This document shows, one piece after another, positions 10,244 to 51,493 of a stretch of DNA of 64,000 nt; the stretch's first letter is position 1, and each line of letters opens with the position of its first letter. The notes beneath the pieces were generated by a model, which saw nothing but the letters and a program-made list of their open reading frames with translations, searched no databases and was not told the origin of the DNA. A program made the translations under genes and the position numbers. The DNA comes from Fistulifera solaris (Eukaryota > Bacillariophyta > Bacillariophyceae > Naviculales > Stauroneidaceae): positions 2,046,001 through 2,110,000 of the forward strand of contig AP026126.1 in assembly GCA_030295235.1 (NCBI GenBank). Reading direction: 5' to 3'.

Positions 10244-10867
10244 GATGGCGTTTTTGTTCGGTTTCTAAATTTCAAGGAAGGGGGTAATGAAAACGTTTCG
10301 TAGCAGTACGAAGAAGTTATATTATTTGTATTATGTAACGACAGTCAAAAGGTCAAAGGCACTGGTATGAATGATTGCGATGATCTGGCAAGAAATCAAT
10401 TTTCGTGGATCGGTCGGTTTGCGATCTATTTTTTGTGTGTTGGATAATTAAAAGTGACGTAGGCCAAATGAATCCGTGATTGATTTCCAGTCACGCCAAT
10501 GTGAACCTACGACGCGACGACTACCTGGTACTCACTCCTCCGACCTCTACCAGCAGCAGTACTTGGTAGTTTCTCAATAAAAATCTGTAGAAGGAGAATA
10601 AAGTGAATATTGCACGGGGTCGAACACTATTCGTACTTCAGTATTGCTATTTGATTGATAATGCTAACGAAATATGAAAACAGGTGGGAATTTCCGCTGC
10701 AAGATCTCTCTCTCCGACACCGTCCAAGACGAACTTTGCATCTCCTTCGTTGCTTCTGTACTTTTTTCCTCTTTCCCACTGTATCCGCTTTTCGTTTGAC
10801 TCTATCGCGCGAAATATTTTCTCATTTACCGGCCCTTATTATCATTAACAGCAGAGTCTTTTTTGAA
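10244..10867. other. Divergent promoter region
   Basis: About 620 bp between the pentapeptide gene and the NNCW protein. It contains TACCTGGTA at 10522-10530. The plus-strand frame of the next gene is open upstream to 10661 (an alternative ATG), but that extension looks low in coding character. Confidence 0.5.
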
Positions 10868-11326
10868 ATGAAATGCCGCTCGAATCGATCTCTCCTTTTC
10901 CTACGGATCATCCTCATTACGATGAGTTGCATTTTTATGACTACAAAAGCGAACGTGATAGAACCACAACTCAAACCTCGATTGGTGCTACAACCCTTGA
11001 TCGGCGGACCATCTTGGCTAAAATTACATGTTCAAGTACATCTCGTGGAGAACCTTGACAACAGCAACGACAACAGCAGAAACCAAATACGTCACAAATT
11101 TGATTTCGTTCCTCTTCAAGCCACGGAACCCCAAACACTCATTCAACTACTAACACTACAGTCGGTCCCGGGAGAGATACGGACCTTTCAGTCGACGCAT
11201 CCACCTAGTTTGCAGTTTTGTCAACAATATGACAAAGAGGAATTGCATTTGATTTTCAACAATTGCTGGACATTTGCTGCGAAATTGTACTGGTATTTGC
11301 GGCAACAACAAGAGGAGAAGAGATGA
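10868..11326 (+). CDS. Small secreted or membrane-anchored protein with NNCWTFA motif
   Basis: A 152-residue protein if started at ATG 10868 (MKCRSNRSLLFLRIILITMS), which gives a clear signal peptide or anchor. An in-frame ATG at 10661 would add about 69 residues. The body has two conserved-looking blocks. HKFDFVPLQATEPQTLIQLL is followed by SVPGEIR. LHLIFNNCWTFAAKLYWYL lies near the C-terminus. A basic HxFDF...P block plus an NNCW motif recurs in small uncharacterised algal proteins as I remember them, but I cannot name a domain. A Cys/His pair of this kind could be catalytic, as in NlpC/LRAT-like folds. That is speculation. Confidence 0.5.
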   Translation: MKCRSNRSLLFLRIILITMSCIFMTTKANVIEPQLKPRLVLQPLIGGPSWLKLHVQVHLVENLDNSNDNSRNQIRHKFDFVPLQATEPQTLIQLLTLQSVPGEIRTFQSTHPPSLQFCQQYDKEELHLIFNNCWTFAAKLYWYLRQQQEEKR

Positions 11327-11639: not shown

Positions 11640-12992
11640 TTACTGGCGGCGGCGGCTTCCCGAGTTGGACGTCGAGGGACTATCAGCCGAGTCGTTGCTT
11701 GCGCTTGCACTTGCTAGGTTGCGGCGGCTGCCCGAGTTGGACGTCGAGGGACTGTCGACAGAGTCGTTGCTTGCGCTTGCACTCGCGAGGTTGCGGCGGC
11801 TGCCCGAGTTGGACGTCGAGGGACTATCAGCCGAGTCGTTGCTTGCGCTTGCACTCGCGAGGTTGCGGTGGCTGCCCGAGTTGGACGTCGAGGGACTATC
11901 AGCCGAGTCGTTGCTTGCGCTTGCACTTGCTAGGTTGCGGCGGCTTCCCGAGTTGGACGTCGAGGGACTGTCGACAGAGTCGTTGCTTGCGCTTGCACTC
12001 GCGAGGTTGCGGCGGCTGCCCGAGTTGGACGTCGAGGGACTGTCGACAGAGTCGTTGCTTGCGCTTGCACTTGCTAGGTTGCGGCGGCTGCCCGAGTTGG
12101 ACGTCGAGGGACTATCAGCCGAGTCGTTGCTTGCGCTTGCACTTGCTAGGTTGCGGCGGCTGCCCGAGTTGGACGTCGAGGGACTATCAGCCGAGTCGTT
12201 GCTTGCACTTGCACTCGCGAGGTTGCGGCGGCTGCCCGAGTTGGACGTCGAGGGACTGTCGACAGAGTCGTTGCTTGCGCTTGCACTCGCGAGGTTGCGG
12301 CGGCTGCCCGAGTTGGACGTCGAGGGACTGTCGACAGAGTCGTTGCTTGCGCTTGCACTCGCGAGGTTGCGGTGGCTGCCCGAGTTGGACGTCGAGGGAC
12401 TATCAGCCGAGTCGTTGCTTGCGCTTGCACTTGCTAGGTTGCGGCGGCTTCCCGAGTTGGACGTCGAGGGACTGTCGACAGAGTCGTTGCTTGCGCTTGC
12501 ACTCGCGAGGTTGCGGCGGCTGCCCGAGTTGGACGTCGAGGGACTGTCGACAGAGTCGTTGCTTGCGCTTGCACTTGCTAGGTTGCGGCGGCTGCCCGAG
12601 TTGGACGTCGAGGGACTATCAGCCGAGTCGTTGCTTGCGCTTGCACTTGCTAGGTTGCGGCGGCTGCCCGAGTTGGACGTCGAGGGACTATCAGCCGAGT
12701 CGTTGCTTGCACTTGCACTCGCGAGGTTGCGGCGGCTGCCCGAGTTGGACGTCGAGGGACTGTCGACAGAGTCGTTGCTTGCGCTTGCACTCGCGAGGTT
12801 GCGGCGGCTGCCCGAGTTGGACGTCGAGGGACTGTCGACAGAGTCGTTACTGGAGCTTGCTAGGACACGCTTGCGCAACATCGTAGGAGCCTCATCTACG
12901 ACATTGCCGAACTCGTTGTTGATGTCGACGGCTTTTGAAGTTGCGCCCGTCAAAGAGATAAGGAATAAGATGGAAGTGGTTGAAAACTTCAT
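11640..12992 (-). CDS. Secreted Ser/Asp-rich repeat precursor with RRNL processing sites (silaffin/silacidin-like candidate)
   Basis: A 450-residue, intronless protein with a signal peptide (MKFSTTSILFLISLTGATSKA) and a short acidic pro-region ending MLRKRVL. Seventeen tandem units of 24 residues follow. Each full unit starts ASASASNDS(V/A)DS, continues PSTSNSGS and ends RRNL. A unit contains nine Ser, one Thr, two Asp, two Arg and no Lys. Silaffin Sil1p of Cylindrotheca is known to be cut after similar (K)RRxL ends. Silacidins are Ser/Asp-rich phosphopeptides released from a repeat precursor. The layout here matches such a precursor, giving about 16-17 near-identical phosphorylatable peptides. 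A silica or cell-wall role is inference. The opposite strand is also open over the repeats, but lacks a signal peptide and is a by-product of the 72-nt period. Confidence 0.8.
   Translation of the reverse strand: MKFSTTSILFLISLTGATSKAVDINNEFGNVVDEAPTMLRKRVLASSSNDSVDSPSTSNSGSRRNLASASASNDSVDSPSTSNSGSRRNLASASASNDSADSPSTSNSGSRRNLASASASNDSADSPSTSNSGSRRNLASASASNDSVDSPSTSNSGSRRNLASASASNDSVDSPSTSNSGSRRNLASASASNDSADSPSTSNSGSHRNLASASASNDSVDSPSTSNSGSRRNLASASASNDSVDSPSTSNSGSRRNLASASASNDSADSPSTSNSGSRRNLASASASNDSADSPSTSNSGSRRNLASASASNDSVDSPSTSNSGSRRNLASASASNDSVDSPSTSNSGSRRNLASASASNDSADSPSTSNSGSHRNLASASASNDSADSPSTSNSGSRRNLASASASNDSVDSPSTSNSGSRRNLASASASNDSADSPSTSNSGSRRRQ
11660..12860. repeat. 72-bp tandem repeat array, about 17 copies
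   Basis: In-frame minisatellite encoding the Ser/Asp peptides. Units differ at a few positions: a GTCGACAG versus ATCAGCCG segment (Val/Ala), CTCGCGAGG versus CTTGCTAGG, GCGGTGGC versus GCGGCGGC (His/Arg), and CTTCCCGAG versus CTGCCCGAG. The order of variants repeats with a period of seven units. Confidence 0.95.
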
Positions 12993-29893: not shown

Positions 29894-31103
29894 TCAATTG
29901 GCGAGCGCCATTTTGGGCAAAGATCCAAGAATATCCTTCAACTCTTCACCGAGTTCCTCATCCTCCTCGCTCCAATCTTCCGAGTCGTACTCGGACTCAT
30001 CATCATCATCGTCGTCGTCGTCGTCAGAGTCGTCATCCGAGAAATCGGCTTCGCTCATATCCGCTGTCTTATCATTGTCTTCCAACAGCATGCGAGCTTC
30101 TTGGGGATTGAGTTTGCCGGCGGCAACCATGCCTGCCATATCATCAGGCAGAGCGTCCTTGGGATTCTCCAAGAAGCGGGTGTGGGGTCCAATCTTCACG
30201 AGTTCTGGCGGACCCTGCTCACCATCCTTCTCTGCAGAACGCTTGGGCCAGTATCTATCAGCGTTCTGTTCAAGAAAGGCGATCCAATCTCCATAGTGTT
30301 CCTTACGAACATAATTTAGAGGACAGTGACCTCGCGCATCAATCATATGAAACATTCTCACGTCGAATTTCAAAATTTCTTCCACGACCGGAAAAGCAGG
30401 CTCCGCAGCCCAACAAGCATCATGCAAAGGCGTGCGACCGTAATCATCCGCAGTGCGAAAGTCGCAACCTCTTTCAAGCAAAACGTCCATCATCGGCTTG
30501 CTACCATGACGACAAACAGTGTGCGCAACAGATTCGCTGTATTGATTACAAGGATTGGAAGAGAGACCAGCCCTCATTAATTCCTGAAAGTTCTCAACGT
30601 CATGGCGACGAATCAGTCCAATCAGGTGAATATTGTAACTAGCACGCTGATGAGAAGAAGGCGTGTTATAATAGCCTGACTGCAAAGTAGGATAGCGTTT
30701 CGTCGAGTAGCCACGGTAGCGTAACATGGCGTCCATGTACGCCTGAGGATTCAACAGCTGTTACAAATAATGCGGCAAAGGACGTTAGTATGAAGGTTGG
30801 AGCTTACTTAGTTGCAAAAAAACCTGTAAAACTTACATTATCATTGCTGTCCGTCTTGCGAAGAGCCGGACGCTTCTTCGTCTCAGTGGGCGTTTTGACA
30901 TCAGCCGTTCGAATGATTTGGCTCTTCTTTCCTCGGCTGAACGAGGTTGTAGCTTTCTGGAACAGCCAGTTGCGAAAAAAGACTTTATTCGCGGCCTTCT
31001 CAGGAGGAGGTTTGTGGACTTCCTTGCCTCGGTTCGAAGCCAGAAAGACAGCTTGAAGAGCAACGGGAATACGGCTTTGCTTTTTCTGGGGTTGGGCACT
31101 CAT
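29894..31103 (-). CDS. Ankyrin-repeat protein, copy 1 (acidic tail)
   Basis: Exons 30837-31103 and 29894-30757, separated by a 79-bp intron with GTAAGT donor, give 376 residues. Exon 1 (MSAQPQKKQSRIPVALQAVFLAS) is basic and includes a KVFFRNWLFQKA segment. Exon 2 carries ankyrin units: IHLIGLIRRHDVENFQELMRAG, SVAHTVCRHGSKPMMDVLLERG and GRTPLHDACWAAEPAFPVVEEIL, ending in CPLNYVRKEHYGDWIAFLEQ. A long Asp/Ser run (DDDSDDDDDDDDDESEYDSED) and the end ELKDILGSLPKMALAN follow. A closely similar gene lies in opposite orientation at 34102-35276. Diatoms have many proteins of this ankyrin type. It is probably cytosolic or nuclear; the partner is unknown. Confidence 0.8.
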
Positions 31104-34101: not shown

Positions 34102-35276
34102 ATGAGTGCGCAACCTCAAAACAAACAAGGTCGCATCCCCTTGGCTCTTCAAGCAGTATTTCTGGCTTCGAACCGAGGCAAGGAAGTTCACAAACCTCCT
34201 CCGGAGAAGGCTGCGAACAAGGTCTTCTTTCGCAACTGGCTTTTCCAGAAAGCTTCGACCTCGATCAGCCGAGGAAAGAAGAGCCAAATCGTCCAGACTG
34301 CTGATGTCAAGGCACCAACCGAGACGAAGAAGCGTCCGGCTCTTCGCAAAACTGATAGTACGGATAACGTAAGTTCTTCATCATCTTTCAAAATAAATGC
34401 ATTATTTGTAATTATCTTACTTTCTTTTTAAAAAACAGTTGCTGAATCCTCAGGCTTACATGGACGCCATGTTGCGTTATCGTGGATACTCGACGAAACG
34501 TTATCACACTTTGCAATCGGGCTACTACAACAAACCTTCTCCGCACCAACGTGCTAGTTATAACATCCATTTAATTGGACTGATTCGTCGTCGTGACGTT
34601 GAGAACTTTCAGGAATTAATGAGGGCTGGTCTCTCTTCCAATCCTTGTAATCAATACAGCGAATCTGTTGCGCACACTGTTTGTCGTCATGGTAGCAAGC
34701 CGATGATGGACGTTTTGCTTGAAAGAGGTTGCGACTTTCGCACTGCGGATGATTACGGTCGCACGCCTTTGCATGATGCTTGTTGGGCTGCGGAGCCTGC
34801 TTTTCCGGTCGTGGAAGAAATTTTGAAATTCGACGTGAGAATGTTTCATATGATTGATGCGCGAGGTCACTGTCCTCTAAATTATGTTCGTAAGGAACAC
34901 TATGGAGATTGGATCGCCTTTCTTGAACAGAACGCTGATAGATACTGGCCCAAGCGTTCTGCAGCGAAGGATGGTGAGCAGGGTCCACCACAACTTGCTT
35001 TAATGAAGCCTCACAGTCGCATAGTTGACAACCCAAAGGATGCCTTGCCCGATGATATGGCTTGCATGGTAGCTGCTGGTAAACTCAGTCCCCAGGAAGC
35101 TCGCATGTTGACCGAGGACAATGAAGCGACCGAGGCCATGAGTAATGATGGAAGTGAAGATTACTCAGATGACGATGATTCCGAATACGATTCTGAAAAC
35201 GACGACTGGGACGAGGGAGGATGAAGAGCTGCTAGATGTTCTTGGCGGCTTGCCTCAGATCGCCATTCGCGAATAA
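34102..35276 (+). CDS. Ankyrin-repeat protein, copy 2
   Basis: Exons 34102-34368 and from 34439, with a 70-bp intron at the same position as in copy 1. Exon 1 (MSAQPQNKQGRIPLALQAVF) is close to copy 1. The ankyrin region is almost identical, while the acidic tail is shorter and diverged. As read, the frame ends at 35224 after DDWDEGG. Dropping one G from the GGG at 35215-35217 gives DEEDEELLDVLGGLPQIAIRE and a stop at 35274-35276, matching the copy 1 ending, so a base error is likely. Introns differ completely in sequence, but a 371-bp stretch of exon 2 is identical between copies (34594-34964 against 30232-30602). Confidence 0.8.
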
Positions 35277-42176: not shown

Positions 42177-44488
42177 TTATGCAAATTTGTACAGGTTCAC
42201 AACACCAATCTCACTGTCTGTTTTCCCCAACGTCCCAATACCGCCTAATGCAACAGTTAATCCATCCGTCGTTATTGCGACGGAAGTACCTAATCGAAGT
42301 CCATCGTATTCACCAACTATATTTGTGCCTTGCTGACAGAAGATTCCGGCATCTCGATAAACCTGTACAACACCGGCCGGGCTGGCACTGGTAAACGATC
42401 CCAGCGAATAGGGAGATCCGACCACTAAATGGCTTCCGTCCCCGCTAAGACTAACAATTTCTCCAAAGTCTTCATGATCTATGCCTACAATTGTGTCAAA
42501 TCTCAGCCAGTCGGCACCGTCAAAGTCATCAACAGTTACATATCCAGTATTTCCTGCAGCAGAAAGGGTTCCGATGGCTATTCTATCTCCAGCATTGTTG
42601 ATAGAAACCGAATTTCCGAAAGCATCGCCCTTGCTTGAAGGTGGAGGGAAAATGGAACTGCCTACCTGCACCCATTTATCTGTTTCATACTCAAAGACCA
42701 TAGCGTATTCTCCGCCCTTTGCTCCGACAACGATAATGCTTCCGTCTTCGTTAATGTCGACAGCTGAACAAATGATTTCGCCGAATTAGTATTGTTACAG
42801 GGAGAGGAAATGACATCACACGAACACGCTTACCTTCACCAAACAAGTCGCCGTCATTCCCTGTTAGTTTTTGTCCAACTTGCTCTAAAGCAGATTTAGC
42901 AGCGTTGGCGCGGAATACGTAAACAGAGTTGTTGTCGACGCCACTGGTGATTATCGTCGAGCCATCTGATGAAATAGCTACTTGCTGTCCGACGGCCTCC
43001 GTCAGAGCCTTGGTACTAATACTCGAGACAACAGTGGCGTCCTTCAAAAGAAAAGCTCGACATACTCATCGGCAGCAACGGCCAGAGCACTTCCATCACC
43101 CGAAATCGCTACAGCTGAGCCAAATCCGATGCTTGCAGCGCGATCTCCAGAGATCATTTCGTTGAAAGCAACAGTTCCGTTCGTAATGGTATAAGTATCA
43201 GCCAGGCCAGTGAGACTTCCATTTCCATCGCCTACGTCATAATTAGGACCACCAATAAGAAGCATAGATCCGTCGGTCGTCATGGAGACTCCTGCTCCGT
43301 AGTTGCCTCCAGCTTGGTCACCCACTATTGTTGATATTGATGTCCAGGTACCCTGTCCTAAACCAATGCAAGTTTTACTTCTTGTTGCTACTGGAAGAGA
43401 AGTCGGTGCTGGTGTCGACGACGACTCGTTTTCAGCAACATTTCCGTCTCCAATGCTGGACGGTTGCAGGGATGGTAGTTCCGATGTTGATGGAGCGCTG
43501 CTGATAGACGGAGCGCTGCTGATCGACGGAGCGCTGCTAATAGATGGTGCACTGGATGCATCAACAGCGGATGGGCCATCGGTAGTTTCTTCGGCGGCGG
43601 AGGGTGCGCCAGTGGTATCATCATCGACAGCCGATGGTGCACTAGTAGTCGCATCATCAACAGCGGATGGTGAATTCGTTGTCTCGTCATCGGCAGCTGA
43701 TGGAGCGACTGTCGTTTCCTCGTCGACGGCAGCTGACGGGGCATTGCTTGCATCTGCATCCACCGTATTTGAACTTGGAGCGTCGGATGCTACCACTATA
43801 TTTGAGCTTGGGGCTTGTGATGCTGTCGTCGTGCTTGAACTCGGAGCTTGCGATGCTTCAGCCGTGTTCGAGCTTGGAGCTTGGGATGTCGACGCGACTG
43901 GGGGTGACGTCTCAGATCCTGCTACTGGAGCTGTGGTAACGTCACCTGCGGTGGGTTGTGGAGAGGAAACCGGTTGAGGTGATATGGTAGGTGTTGTCGT
44001 TTCCTGGGAATTACTTGGAGCAATTGTAGCGCTCGGTGAAACCGTCTTTTGTCCTTTCTCACTCTTGCCCATTCCCATGGATCCCTTTCCCTTCCCTTTC
44101 CCTTTTCCTTTGCTCTTTTCGTTCTTGTCATGCCCCTTGCCTTTTCCTTTTCCTTTACCCTTTCCCTTGCTATGGCCGTCGTCACTGAAAAAGCCATGAC
44201 TATGATGGTGGCCCATCCCCATACCCATTTTGCCGGTGCCTTTGCCACTGCTAGCCCCTTGCCACTATGGCTAACTTTTCCTGGTTCTCGATAGGGGTCT
44301 TTATGGTGAAGGAGACTTAGCTTTTCCTCCCCGTGAGTAATGATTTCTTCCTGCACTGACTCGTGCTTCACATGCTGAAATCGCAGATTACGTTCTTCAT
44401 CTGCAAACAGTCCTCTGTCGTGTTGTTGTTGTCGTGCTGAGCTTAAGCCCAGAACGGAAAGGACGGCAATACTCACTCTCATCTTCAT
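42177..44488 (-). CDS. Secreted FG-GAP-type beta-propeller protein with Gly-Lys and Ser-rich tracts
   Basis: ATG 44486-44488. The signal peptide MKMRVSIAVLSVLGLSSARQ is followed by a charged pro-region with a dibasic site, then GKGKGKGKGKG blocks with Met/His (MGMGMGHHHSHG). A long Ser/Thr/Ala linker with many APSS units follows, then seven propeller-like blades of the type VSMTTDGSMLLIGGP, VAISGDGSALAVAA, VAISSDGSTIITSG, VDINEDGSIIVVGA, VSINNAGDRIAIGT, VSLSGDGSHLVVGS and VAITTDGLTVALGG. The intron is 42764-42833. Two one-base shifts occur, at the CCCC run 44255-44258 and near 43046-43054, both at homopolymers. It is extracellular, probably heavily glycosylated, and a candidate for cell-wall or mucilage matrix. 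That role is inferred from composition. Confidence 0.75.
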
Positions 44489-44885
44489 GGTTGAGGTGTA
44501 CGCGTTTTTTTGAACTCGAATGAAAGAAAAATGTGAAGAGCTCGTTTCTTTTTGACAGTCAACGGATGCAACAAATTCAAATTTTCGCGCAAATCGCCGT
44601 TGCATTCTGTTATGTACAAACGTTGTTTTTTTCTGTGCTGTCTGTGGTATAGTCAGTCATCGAAGTGGTACCCACCAGTGTCACATAGACATCTATACGG
44701 TAATGGAGTTCTGCAAGCCCAATTTTGATTCACAAGACTCCATCCAAATTCTAACGTACGAATTCACATTTTCCAAGTCGTTGACTTGTGATTACGATGT
44801 AGACCAACATCAACGTGTCCACGTCCTTGAAATCCAACACCCTGTTTCCAATTGGACAGGGTGACTACTGCGAAACTATTTCGAT
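44489..44885. other. Intergenic
   Basis: About 400 bp between the start of the FG-GAP gene and the stop of ADAT3, both on the minus strand. Promoter region; no other feature seen. Confidence 0.5.
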
Positions 44886-47271: not shown

Positions 47272-47809
47272 TCTCACTGTTTTTTTTTAACAAAAAATGA
47301 TATTCTTTTGCGGTCATAGGCGTTTGTTTTTTACTGTGGTGTTCGGGCTGGCCATTAGATAGATGATGATGATGATGATTCGTGTCGTGGTAGCCGAGCT
47401 TGAGATCGTGATCAAGTAAGGTTAAAGGCTACACTTCCTTGTCACGGTAGGCTGGGTGTTGGTCCGTGATCGTGATTTTCGTTCTGATCGTAATTTAGCA
47501 ACTTGGGATTCCGAAGGGCACGTTCTATAATTCACTAAGGATGACTGCAGTCGTCATCCATTCGTACTAACTAAAAAAAAGAATGATTGCAAAACTGTAC
47601 AAACCCTTGTCTCTGTGACAAGCAACAATACGAGTGATAAAATCTCAGATGCCGATGAGCGATGAGTACGAAAGGGTCATCGTAGACTTAAAGAAAAACA
47701 AAAACAACTTTCTTCTCAAAACAAAACATCCGCGCAATACAACATTGCGAAGAAACACTACAGAATCGATCATCCAATCTGTTATTTCCGACCAAAACTA
47801 ATTGCAATC
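47272..47809. other. Intergenic
   Basis: About 540 bp between two plus-strand genes. A GACTGCAGTC palindrome lies near 47542. No gene or RNA recognised. Confidence 0.45.
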
Positions 47810-49235
47810 ATGATGAAACGAATACTTGCTGTATGTACCGTTCTTTCTTTGCAAGCCGAGGCTGACATGAATCATCTGCGCCGCTTAGCGCCCGCATCGG
47901 AAAATGTTGCTTTATGCACAGATAATTGTGAAACAATAGTCAATTCACGTCAACTTCCTGAAGTGACATACTTTCCCGGAGACTTAACAGGAGGCTACCG
48001 TGCTGACTTGGGCTTAACATTGTCGAAAGGATTAAATGGAAAGAGATTAACAACGGGGGACAAGGCAGTTGTTTTAGCCAACGGTGGCGTCTCGTCCCAA
48101 TTGTTTCATACACATGCCGACGGTGCATGCACTATCCCTAAAAGTAATGGAGATGGTTGGTACTATGTCTCAAATAGCGAGGTGCGAGATGAAGTAGTTG
48201 CGTCTTCATTTACTTGTGGAAGACGACGACAATCCAACTCTGAGGGAATAGGAAACGGTGGTGTTGGTGCGATTGAGTTCAATGCAGCAGGTGAAGTGAT
48301 AGGATACGAGCGGCTCCTAACAAGAACGTCGGCTAATTGCGGCGGAGGTCTCACTTACTGGGGAACTTGGGTGTCATGCGAAGAAAATGACCAAAGTGGT
48401 AGACTCTACGAAGTCGACCCCAACACAGGATATACTCAGCGAATACAAGCGGTCGACCGTGGTGGAAACTACGAGTCCTTTGCCTATGACAATCAAGATC
48501 CGAACGTTCCGGCTCGCTTTTTCGTGGTATGTACATGAAGTTTGACAAGACAAACACAACAGTTTTTAGTACCATATCAGATATCTCACACCAGCCGTCA
48601 ATAAATATCACCTGAACTAGACGGAAGACATTGCAAACGGGGCTTTGATTCGATACACCCCCGCCGCCAATGCTTTCACCACGGGCAACAACTACGATAT
48701 TCTAAACAGTCCCGGTGGTACTTTTGAATATTTGGTTCTGAACGACAATGGTACCTATTCTTGGTCCACCGACCGGGGCGCCGGAGAACAATCTGCCGCT
48801 CGTTATTTCCCCAACACAGAAGGTATTGACGTTTTCAATCGTCAAATGTTCTTTGTGTCGAAAGCAACGAGAAATTTAATACAGGTGGATTTAAGTGGCG
48901 ACACGTTCTCCATAACGTCGACTTTGTCGGGTCAATTCAATCTTTACCCCGATCAACTCGGTCGCATCTTGGAGTCATCCGGCGGCAATAATGATGTGCT
49001 GTATTTCTGTGAAGATGGTGGCAGCAACTCGGATATTCACGGTAGGGATGCGTCTGGGAAGTATTTTACGATTGTGGAAGGAACAGATTTTGATACGGAG
49101 ACTACTGGGTTGGCCTTTTCACCAAATGCGATGTTTATGTATGTCGCGTTTCAAGACCCTTCTGCTATTTTTGCATTTTGGCGGGACGATGGCTTACCTT
49201 TCTCCGGGACTGTCGCTGGAATTAAGTATCATTGA
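47810..49235 (+). CDS. Secreted PhoX/DUF839-family protein, paralogue 1
   Basis: Exons 47810-48526 and 48621-49235, with a 94-bp intron, give 443 residues. A signal peptide (MMKRILAVCTVLSLQAEA) precedes the mature protein. The domain starts VTYFPGDLTGGYRADLGLTL and carries GWYYVSNSEV, GGVGAIEFNAAGEVIGYERLL, TYWGTWVSCEEN, YEVDPNTGYTQRIQ, ESFAYDNQDP, ALIRYTP, NTEGIDVFNRQMFFVSK, DQLGRILES, LYFCEDGG and AIFAFWRDDG. These are blades of the PhoX/DUF839 beta-propeller, whose studied members are Ca/Fe alkaline phosphatases. The conserved TWxxCEEN segment supports metal binding. Phosphatase activity is possible but not shown. Reads cleanly, without frame breaks. Confidence 0.8.
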
Positions 49236-49610
49236 TTGTAAAAGAGTTAGCTCATAAAAGGTCTATCCGGAGCTCTAAAAGTTTGAATCATCATCGTCTT
49301 TTTGTACCTGGTACCAGGTACCTTGTAGCGTTTGAACGGTGACGCCCTTAGTCCGATGTCCGAGGACACAATTCTCTCGAAGAATGACCCTTTGTACACT
49401 TAAAGTACTAGTTTCCCCTGTCTAAAAAAATATCGATGACACGATCCCTGCTAGTTGTCGTGTGTCGTTGTTTGTTTTATGAAAACCGATTTTTACATCA
49501 CGTGCACTTTCTCATTTCTCCCCCAATAAAGCTTATAGTTACTCCATAACACGTGAAAGAGGTTAAGCATTCCATAAGTGGATCGAATCAAATCAACCGG
49601 CTCATGAATA
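49236..49610. other. Intergenic between tandem PhoX-like genes
   Basis: About 375 bp. It contains the perfect palindrome TACCTGGTACCAGGTA at 49305-49320, about 290 bp upstream of the second gene. No gene. Confidence 0.6.
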
Positions 49611-51493
49611 ATGCTTACACGAACAAAATCGGCGCTTCTGTTGCTGTATTGTGTGAGATGGCTCGGTCATTATGTTGGTGCCGATATGAATCACATGTTA
49701 TTTGTATGCAACGGCGGAGGCTACGTTGACTGCGATGCCGACAATGATGGACACCGAAGTTTAAATTGCGGTGGAACTGACTGCAATGATAATGATCCAA
49801 ATGTTTTTCCGGATAGTCAAGAAATTTGTGGTGACGACAAAGACAACAACTGCAACGGTCAAATCGATGAAGGATGTTTCGAACAAGGGGGATATTGTGT
49901 TCGTCATCAGACCGGCACAGTATGTCAAACCGATGTGGATTGCGGGGGAATATGTCTACAGGGGTATAAAGCTGGCTTTGTTTGTGCAGATGACTTGGAT
50001 TGTCCTCCGAATAGCGGTTTAGAGCGTGGGTTTTGTCGGTTTGCAGCTAAAGCATGCGATTCTTCTCCGGCGGCCATTCCGGTTCCCCGTCCTACCACTA
50101 TACCGTCACATGAGCCTTCGTCAAGTCCCATAGCATCTCCATCCACCGCGCCTTCTCCATTTCCGACGTCATCACCGGCTCCACATCCAGTTCCGTCTTC
50201 GGAACCTACGAGTCAACCAACAGAACGACCAACTCCGAAACCTTCATCGGCCCCATCACCTGGCGTTCCTTCGTCCGTACCGTCTTCAGCACCTACACAC
50301 GTAACATACTTTCCCGGTGATCTCACTGGTGGTTATCGGGCTGACTTGGGTTTGACTCTGTCGAGAGGCTTGCAAGGTCGACGACTCACACTGGGCGGAA
50401 GCCGTGTTACTTTGGCAAATAAATCGCGCTCTACACAAACCTTTCACACCAAAGCAGATGGCGCAGGGGTTATTTCTAAAGCAAACGGAAATGGATGGTA
50501 TTATGTATCGAATTCAGAAGTCGGTTCGAGCGGAGGAGGCGTGGGGGCCATAGAATTTAACGCCGCCGGGGAAGTGTTGGGATACAGACGTATCTTGACA
50601 GGTACTTCTCGGAATTGCGGAGGAGGACGAACGTATTGGGGAACTTGGATCACGTGCGAAGAGAATGGCGGGTCTGGACGTTTGTATGAAGTCGATCCCA
50701 ATACAGGCTACACGCAACAGATACGTGCCGTCGATGTGGGCGGAAACTGGGAGTCGTTCGCATACGATGATCAGGATCCAGATGTATCGGCCCGTTTTTA
50801 CATTGTACGTCTTACGCATCGTTGATTGTTGCATACCGTCCTGCAAATCGTTTAATGTTTTCTCATGCTCTCTACAAAGACGGAGGATTGGAGTTATGGC
50901 GCTTTGGTGCGTTACACACCCGCGCCAGCCGCATTTTGACTGGTAACAACTACGACATACTAAACACCGCTGGTGGAACGTATGAGTTCTTGGTGTTGCA
51001 CGCCAATGGTACCTATTCATGGTCGCCGAGTCGATCGGTAGGAGAGACTTCGGCCGAAACGTATTACCCCAACACGGAAGGCATTGATATATTCAATCGA
51101 CAAATGTTCTTTACCTCGAAAGCGACGAAAACATTGGTACAGGTCGATTTAGCAGGAAATACCTATTCGATCACATCGACGCTGTCGGGTCAATTTGATA
51201 TGGAACCAGACCAACTGGGACGAATATTAGAGTCTCGCGGCGGCAACAACGACGTGTTATACTTTTGCGAAGATGGCGGTACGGACTCCGACATTCATGG
51301 TCGTGATGCCACTGGAAAGTATTTCACAATTGTAGAAGGTACCGATTACAATACAGAGACGACAGGATTGACCTTTTCACCCGATGGGATGTTTCTGTAT
51401 GTTGCCTATCAAGGACCTTCATCGATTTTCGCGTTTTGGCGCGAGGATGGATTGCCTTTCTCCGGCATGATCGCCGGCACAAAATATCATTAA
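49611..51493 (+). CDS. Secreted PhoX/DUF839-family protein, paralogue 2, with MopE-type motif and Pro/Ser linker
   Basis: ATG 49611 with signal peptide MLTRTKSALLLLYCVRWLGH. Like paralogue 1, the mature N-terminus has ADMNH. An extra Cys-rich region includes DCNDNDPNVFPDSQEICG and DNNCNGQIDEGC, the putative metal-binding MopE-type motif. A linker rich in PSS/PTP follows, then a DUF839 propeller closely matching paralogue 1 (VTYFPGDLTGGYRADLGLTL). The intron at 50805-50879 is at the same place as in paralogue 1. One shift occurs at the TTTT run 50934-50937: T5 gives APAAFLTGNNYDI, as in the paralogue. Tandem duplication followed by domain gain in this copy, or loss in the other, explains the pair. 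Confidence 0.8.

Follow-up and report, generated by a model that had tools for sequence, protein, structure and literature searches.

RXL-processed precursors of diatom cell walls

In two reviews, Sil1p repeats are described as cut at RIL or RNL, with RRIL/RRNL missing from the mature peptides, and RXL motifs as terminating the repeats of frustulins, cingulins and silacidins (PMC4557024, PMC3820600). Silacidin homologues have been reported as absent from Phaeodactylum tricornutum and Fragilariopsis cylindrus (PMC5649158), and the protease that cuts at RXL has been described as unknown (PMC5525289). Fistulifera solaris is a diatom that has been transformed before, and a frustulin1-GFP fusion was displayed on its cell surface (PMC4712521). 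Silica-associated proteins share low sequence similarity among diatom species, according to one report citing others (PMC11151724), so homology rarely finds them. The candidate described here was pointed out by its processing motif and layout, not by sequence.

A putative repeat-precursor gene in Fistulifera solaris

The stretch of DNA that we analyzed (the window, 64,000 nucleotides) is part of contig C6 of F. solaris; searches of the organism's own genome covered 51.7 Mb in 61 contigs. On the minus strand of the window, an open reading frame (ORF) of 450 amino acids begins with an ATG at 12992 and reaches its stop codon at 11640. The original prediction placed a signal peptide, a pro-region ending in RKRVL and 17 repeat units here, and all three were borne out on this strand: the start is signal-like by hydropathy and the pro-region ends in LRKRVL. 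The ORF with its start, pro-region and Ser/Asp units is real, with the corrections given below. Its features are as follows.

11640..12992, minus strand: whole ORF, a putative RXL-type multi-peptide repeat precursor (ORF, with homoeologue on C5 and paralogue on C20)
12930..12992, minus strand: signal-peptide-like start, residues 1-21 (MKFSTTSILFLISLTGATSKA), from hydropathy; the cleavage point is an estimate
12861..12929, minus strand: pro-region, residues 22-44 (23 residues), terminating LRKRVL (MLRKRxL in C6, C5 and C20)
11643..12860, minus strand: array of 17 units, ASASASNDS(V/A)DSPSTSNSGS-RRNL (TRF and unit alignment)
12795..12860, minus strand: unit 1, 22 residues (ASSSNDSVDSPSTSNSGSRRNL), which also opens the C5 array
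12363..12794, minus strand: units 2-7, unit 7 terminating SGSHRNL; identical to units 9-14
11859..12290, minus strand: units 9-14, unit 14 terminating SGSHRNL; identical to units 2-7
11643..11714, minus strand: last unit (17), terminating SGSRRRQ and then the stop, with no R-x-L after it; the other three copies close with SGSRR and a single further residue

The highest mean hydropathy over 11 residues at the start is 2.04, the basis for calling it signal-peptide-like. We consider the product very likely to be secreted. TRF resolved the array into 16.8 copies of a 72-base period with 93% matches. The predicted length of 24 residues holds for 16 units, unit 1 having 22. SGSRRNL, predicted as the end of every unit, closes 14 of the 17; SGSHRNL closes units 7 and 14, and SGSRRRQ the last. 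The standard unit, ASASASNDS(V/A)DSPSTSNSGSRRNL, has nine Ser, two Asp and no Lys as had been claimed, but the absence of Lys applies to C6 only, as Lys occurs in units of C5 (3/16) and C20 (15/38). The V isoform accounts for 9 of the 17 C6 units. Overall, the array consists of 37.6% Ser, 14.0% Ala, 12.3% Asn and 8.4% Asp, with no Glu and no Lys; every unit (17/17) carries one N-D-S sequon, and Cys is absent from the whole ORF.

Units 2-7 and 9-14 do not differ at any of 432 bases, apparently the result of a recent block duplication or homogenization. Because of this identity, the two units ending in SGSHRNL probably represent one copied event. A small protein beginning MKCRSNRS (window 10655-11326, plus strand), for which no Pfam family was found, adjoins the array; it also lies beside the C5 copy and marks synteny.

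Searches for relatives outside the genome

The whole-ORF protein search scored 8,000 candidates, none with E <= 0.001, and a search with residues 1-66 returned 20, none with E <= 10. This empty result says something, since the database includes protein of F. solaris and of other diatoms; the C6 gene is itself missing from the output, perhaps being unannotated or modelled at a very different length. A Pfam scan of the ORF gave no family, and searches of prokaryote and viral contigs found no relative. A literature search, with most subscription papers outside its coverage, found no description of the unit. The strings SGSRRNL, SGSRRIL, SGSKRRIL and SKRRNL gave 0 matches in a literature search whose reach excluded spaced prints (as used for R5 in one review) and the original silaffin and silacidin papers. 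Within these limits, the protein, Pfam and literature searches agree with the earlier statement that no named family has this exact unit.

Two homoeologous pairs of putative repeat precursors

Own-genome searches revealed at least four family members, forming two homoeologous pairs, C6/C5 and C20/C19. The flanks of the C6 gene align with C5 (82% over 2,395 bases on one side), and a further alignment pairs the C20 locus with that on C19 (90% over 3,288 bases). Both alignments fit an allopolyploid genome with homoeologous pairs; F. solaris has been described as allopolyploid, its chromosomes forming 42 homoeologous pairs (PMC5935921). The C5 homoeologue encodes 432 amino acids with 16 units, three of them of 26 residues. 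Eight of the 16 are of the V isoform, so that V and A are both kept in C6 and C5. The C20 paralogue is longer, at 642 amino acids, and its 38 units include 21 that read DSASNDSADSGSRRHL. Lys in C5 and C20 is mostly single, KK occurring only in the first C20 unit. The C19 copy has 14 units of the C20 kind, and its frame is broken: the start, which reads to MLRKRF, and the array lie in different frames. Judging from its reading frames, C19 (L006) would either have become a pseudogene in one of the subgenomes or have been misassembled.

A start of the form MKF-x-T is common to all four copies. C5 and C20 have a similar signal-like start, as does C19, out of frame with its array. MLRKRxL is present in three copies, with x being V in C6, H in C5 and F in C20. 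Genome-wide, the pattern MLRKRxLA gave four matches against three in the control; three of the four are the intact family members, and the other, a 38-amino-acid frame on C26, was judged a chance match. A looser DNA pattern for SGSRRxL was uninformative (760 matches versus 1,008 in the control). Matches on C4 and C3 were rejected as family members, since these long PSASPS-type proteins share composition only. The C4/C3 pair (L004, L005) looks homoeologous; both proteins are long and rich in Lys and Glu, begin with a hydrophobic stretch and contain repeats such as SEPSASPSGKEKEEGGAKLPTFAA.

Conservation of the unit and choice of strand

Consensus units were built from 15 of the 17 C6 units and 11 of the 16 C5 units, leaving out last units and those of other lengths. 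The two consensus sequences are identical at all but 12 of 72 sites. Third positions account for 11 of these differences, and the sole amino acid change is V/A, that is, the two isoforms. In the sense frame, pS is 0.63 and pN 0.018 for the unit. The start plus pro-region evolves faster than the unit (pS 0.33, pN 0.11). Between the two subgenomes, silent sites have diverged and the amino acids of the unit have been retained, a pattern suggesting that the peptide itself is under selection. Constraint on the C20 units appears looser than on C6/C5: among 36 of the 38 units compared, nine columns vary, six of them at third positions, with five silent versus four amino acid changes.

The array is also open on the opposite strand, as 72 is a multiple of 3, and there the frame reaches 486 amino acids with a GTG start only. 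The matching antisense frame of the C6/C5 unit gives pS 0.47 and pN 0.039. Changes within the C6 array count as seven silent and two other in both the sense and antisense frames, and those within the C5 array as five silent and one other in antisense versus four and two in sense. Since the antisense frame does almost as well, the silent-site test alone cannot choose the strand. A functionless coding minisatellite, or an array read on the wrong strand, would owe its open frames solely to the 72-base period. In its favor are the several frames that stay open across the array, an antisense frame conserved almost as well between C6 and C5, the homogenization of units (2-7 being identical to 9-14) and the broken frame of C19. 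Such an array would not account for a start and pro-region that lie outside the repeats and are kept in C5 and partly in C20. Moreover, the plus-strand ORF begins only at GTG, and the matching antisense frame contains a stop in the C20 consensus unit, other antisense frames being open there. We regard this explanation as very improbable. We take the minus strand as sense on the evidence of the ATG, the start resembling a signal peptide, the pro-region and the paralogues.

Probable processing at R-x-L

Counting the one after the pro-region, R-x-L is intact at 17/17 junctions in C6, 16/16 in C5 and 38/38 in C20, and it is intact between the C19 units as well (13/13). The inter-unit junctions of C6 are all R-N-L (16/16), and the R-V-L of its pro-region stands directly before unit 1. 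When the letters of the pro-region were shuffled, R-x-L fell at the end in 0.8% (C6), 1.1% (C5) and 2.2% (C20) of shuffles, three figures that are not independent because the pro-regions are homologous. Across copies, V, H, F, N and Q all occur at x, and two C6 units have His in place of the Arg that precedes RNL, so the conserved residues are R and L. All four copies stop right after SGSRR plus one or two residues, as expected if RR..L lies between peptides. By hydropathy and motif, the C6 ORF has the signal-like start and the short region ending in R-x-L of the broad class of RXL-processed diatom wall precursors. The idea of a secreted, multi-copy precursor with Sil1p-like sites is supported by the published RIL/RNL cutting and RXL repeat ends (PMC4557024, PMC3820600) and by the similar start of frustulin1. 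By analogy with these proteins, the C6 product is probably cut at RXL.

Some of these features would also be shared by a Ser-rich repeat protein that remains uncut in the surface casing or mucilage. Its Ser and Thr would be glycosylated, its Arg pairs would bind acidic polysaccharide, and RXL would be used once, after the pro-region. This agrees with the RXL pro-regions of frustulins, proteins exposed at the outer surface in F. solaris. The high Ser content of the array and the sequon in every unit would suit such a protein, but R-x-L is kept at all junctions beyond the pro-region one, and the last unit stops at SGSRR in every copy. We therefore consider it unlikely.

Cleavage into peptides would also be expected if the product were a secreted signal peptide made in many copies, matured in the manner of a yeast pheromone precursor and passed into the medium. 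Features that agree with this are the signal-like start, the pro-region, the numerous near-identical units flanked by basic sites, and the two fixed isoforms that both subgenomes retain. However, a peptide of low complexity whose length and Lys content vary among copies would be unusual as a receptor ligand, and a six-frame genome search, which ignores introns and had no eukaryotic positive control, found no Kex2/furin P-domain. With the same limits on that search, Kex2-type cutting is disfavored, and a pheromone-like product seems quite improbable. The six-frame search, likewise ignoring introns and run without a eukaryotic positive control, gave 22 aspartyl-protease matches in the genome. 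Plasmepsin V and ASP5 are aspartyl proteases that cut RxL-type motifs, a possible parallel to the predicted cutting at RXL here.

Comparison with silaffins, silacidins and frustulins

Like Sil1p of Cylindrotheca fusiformis, the C6 gene appears to encode a secreted precursor whose tandem repeats close with R-x-L and carry Ser-rich peptides between these sites; RNL is one of the motifs at which cutting has been published (PMC4557024, PMC3820600). Sil1p units, however, carry Lys-Lys clusters with polyamines, and the C6 array is without Lys; Lys-Lys or KXXK clusters, a silaffin criterion, were not found in it. A four-fold R5 query against this genome, the C6 gene included, gave no match in a search without a positive control. 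Without Lys clusters, and with no R5 similarity found, the C6 product would be a Sil1p-type precursor in its working and not a silaffin.

Silacidin of Thalassiosira pseudonana is likewise described as a repetitive precursor from which RXL cutting yields Ser-rich acidic peptides (PMC4557024). These consist mainly of Ser, Asp and Glu (PMC3820600), whereas the C6 array has little Asp and no Glu, with Ala and Asn prominent. The prediction of silacidin-like acidic peptides therefore stands for plan and composition and not as originally worded: the C6 product resembles silacidin in these two respects only. A comparable case is protein 1401909 of Entomoneis vertebralis, with Ser-rich repeats likened to silacidin without sequence similarity. 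Its repeat, SEV.S.SE, differs in containing Glu, and the accessible text of the report does not mention RXL units (PMC12533330). That report means that composition-based silacidin look-alikes are already being proposed.

The same genome encodes frustulin1, which we located on contig C29, where both published primers (PMC4712521) match exactly and in correct orientation; the match bears out the diatom origin implied by the original prediction. Frustulin1 shares with the C6 ORF a hydrophobic start and a short pro-region, here ending in FLRRKL. It differs in that frustulins have acidic Cys-rich (ACR) domains (PMC4712521), and the C6 ORF has no Cys.

Proposed function

On the strength of sequence and analogy, the reading that we find most likely, with about an even chance, is that of a secreted cell-wall precursor which the diatom cuts into near-identical Ser/Asp peptides, a lineage-specific variant of the silaffin/silacidin plan. 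The precursor would enter the ER and be carried to the wall-forming compartment. A protease of the secretory path would cut after R-x-L and the basic tail would be trimmed, by analogy with Sil1p, silacidins and frustulins. Peptides of 18 to 20 residues such as ASASASNDSVDSPSTSNSGS, with 10 Ser/Thr and two Asp each, would be set free. Less certainly, the ten Ser/Thr could be phosphorylated as in silacidin, which would make the peptides strong polyanions. These might associate with long-chain polyamines, or with sister peptides that contain Lys, and aid silica formation, like silacidins in T. pseudonana, a step that is also less certain.

That the product is part of the cell wall is somewhat favored over its absence from it. 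A silacidin-like action of the peptides in silica is plausible, though we lean slightly against it. The motif does not prove embedding in silica, because RXL also precedes the surface-exposed frustulins, and a role in the casing is possible too. More tentatively, and rather doubtfully, the two homoeologous pairs may form a lineage-specific class of silica polyanions in a pennate diatom, filling the role of silacidin in a lineage without it. One RXL protease would serve for all members. The pairs would supply an acidic Ser/Asp set of 24-residue units, with both isoforms retained in each subgenome, and a set of 16-residue units, some of which bear Lys. Because the masses of the near-identical peptides can be predicted exactly, mass spectrometry could test the claim directly. 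With RRNL/RRHL taken off, the calculated monoisotopic masses are 1826.740 and 1798.709 for the C6/C5 20-mers, 1684.666 for the first unit, and 1111.390 and 1125.442 for the C20 12-mers; each phosphate would add 79.966.

Other genes in the window

Two closely similar ankyrin-repeat proteins (Pfam Ank_2), each with an acidic, Asp-rich tail, are encoded about 4 kb apart in opposite orientation, at 29894-30760 (minus strand) and 34412-35224 (plus strand). For T. pseudonana, a connection between the pattern of silica pores and ankyrin proteins named dAnks has been reported (PMC11151724), and the two proteins of the window are candidate kin of these. A secreted-looking protein at 43044-44656 (minus strand), which the stop-to-stop list divides between two frames, has GKGKGKGKG runs and long SAPS-type repeats, and no Pfam family was found for its larger part. 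Two adjoining PhoX-like secreted proteins (PF05787) lie at 47666-49235 and 49608-51493 on the plus strand. The first has MNHLRRLAP just after its hydrophobic start, a possible RXL pro-region, and the second contains a MopE-type metal-binding motif.
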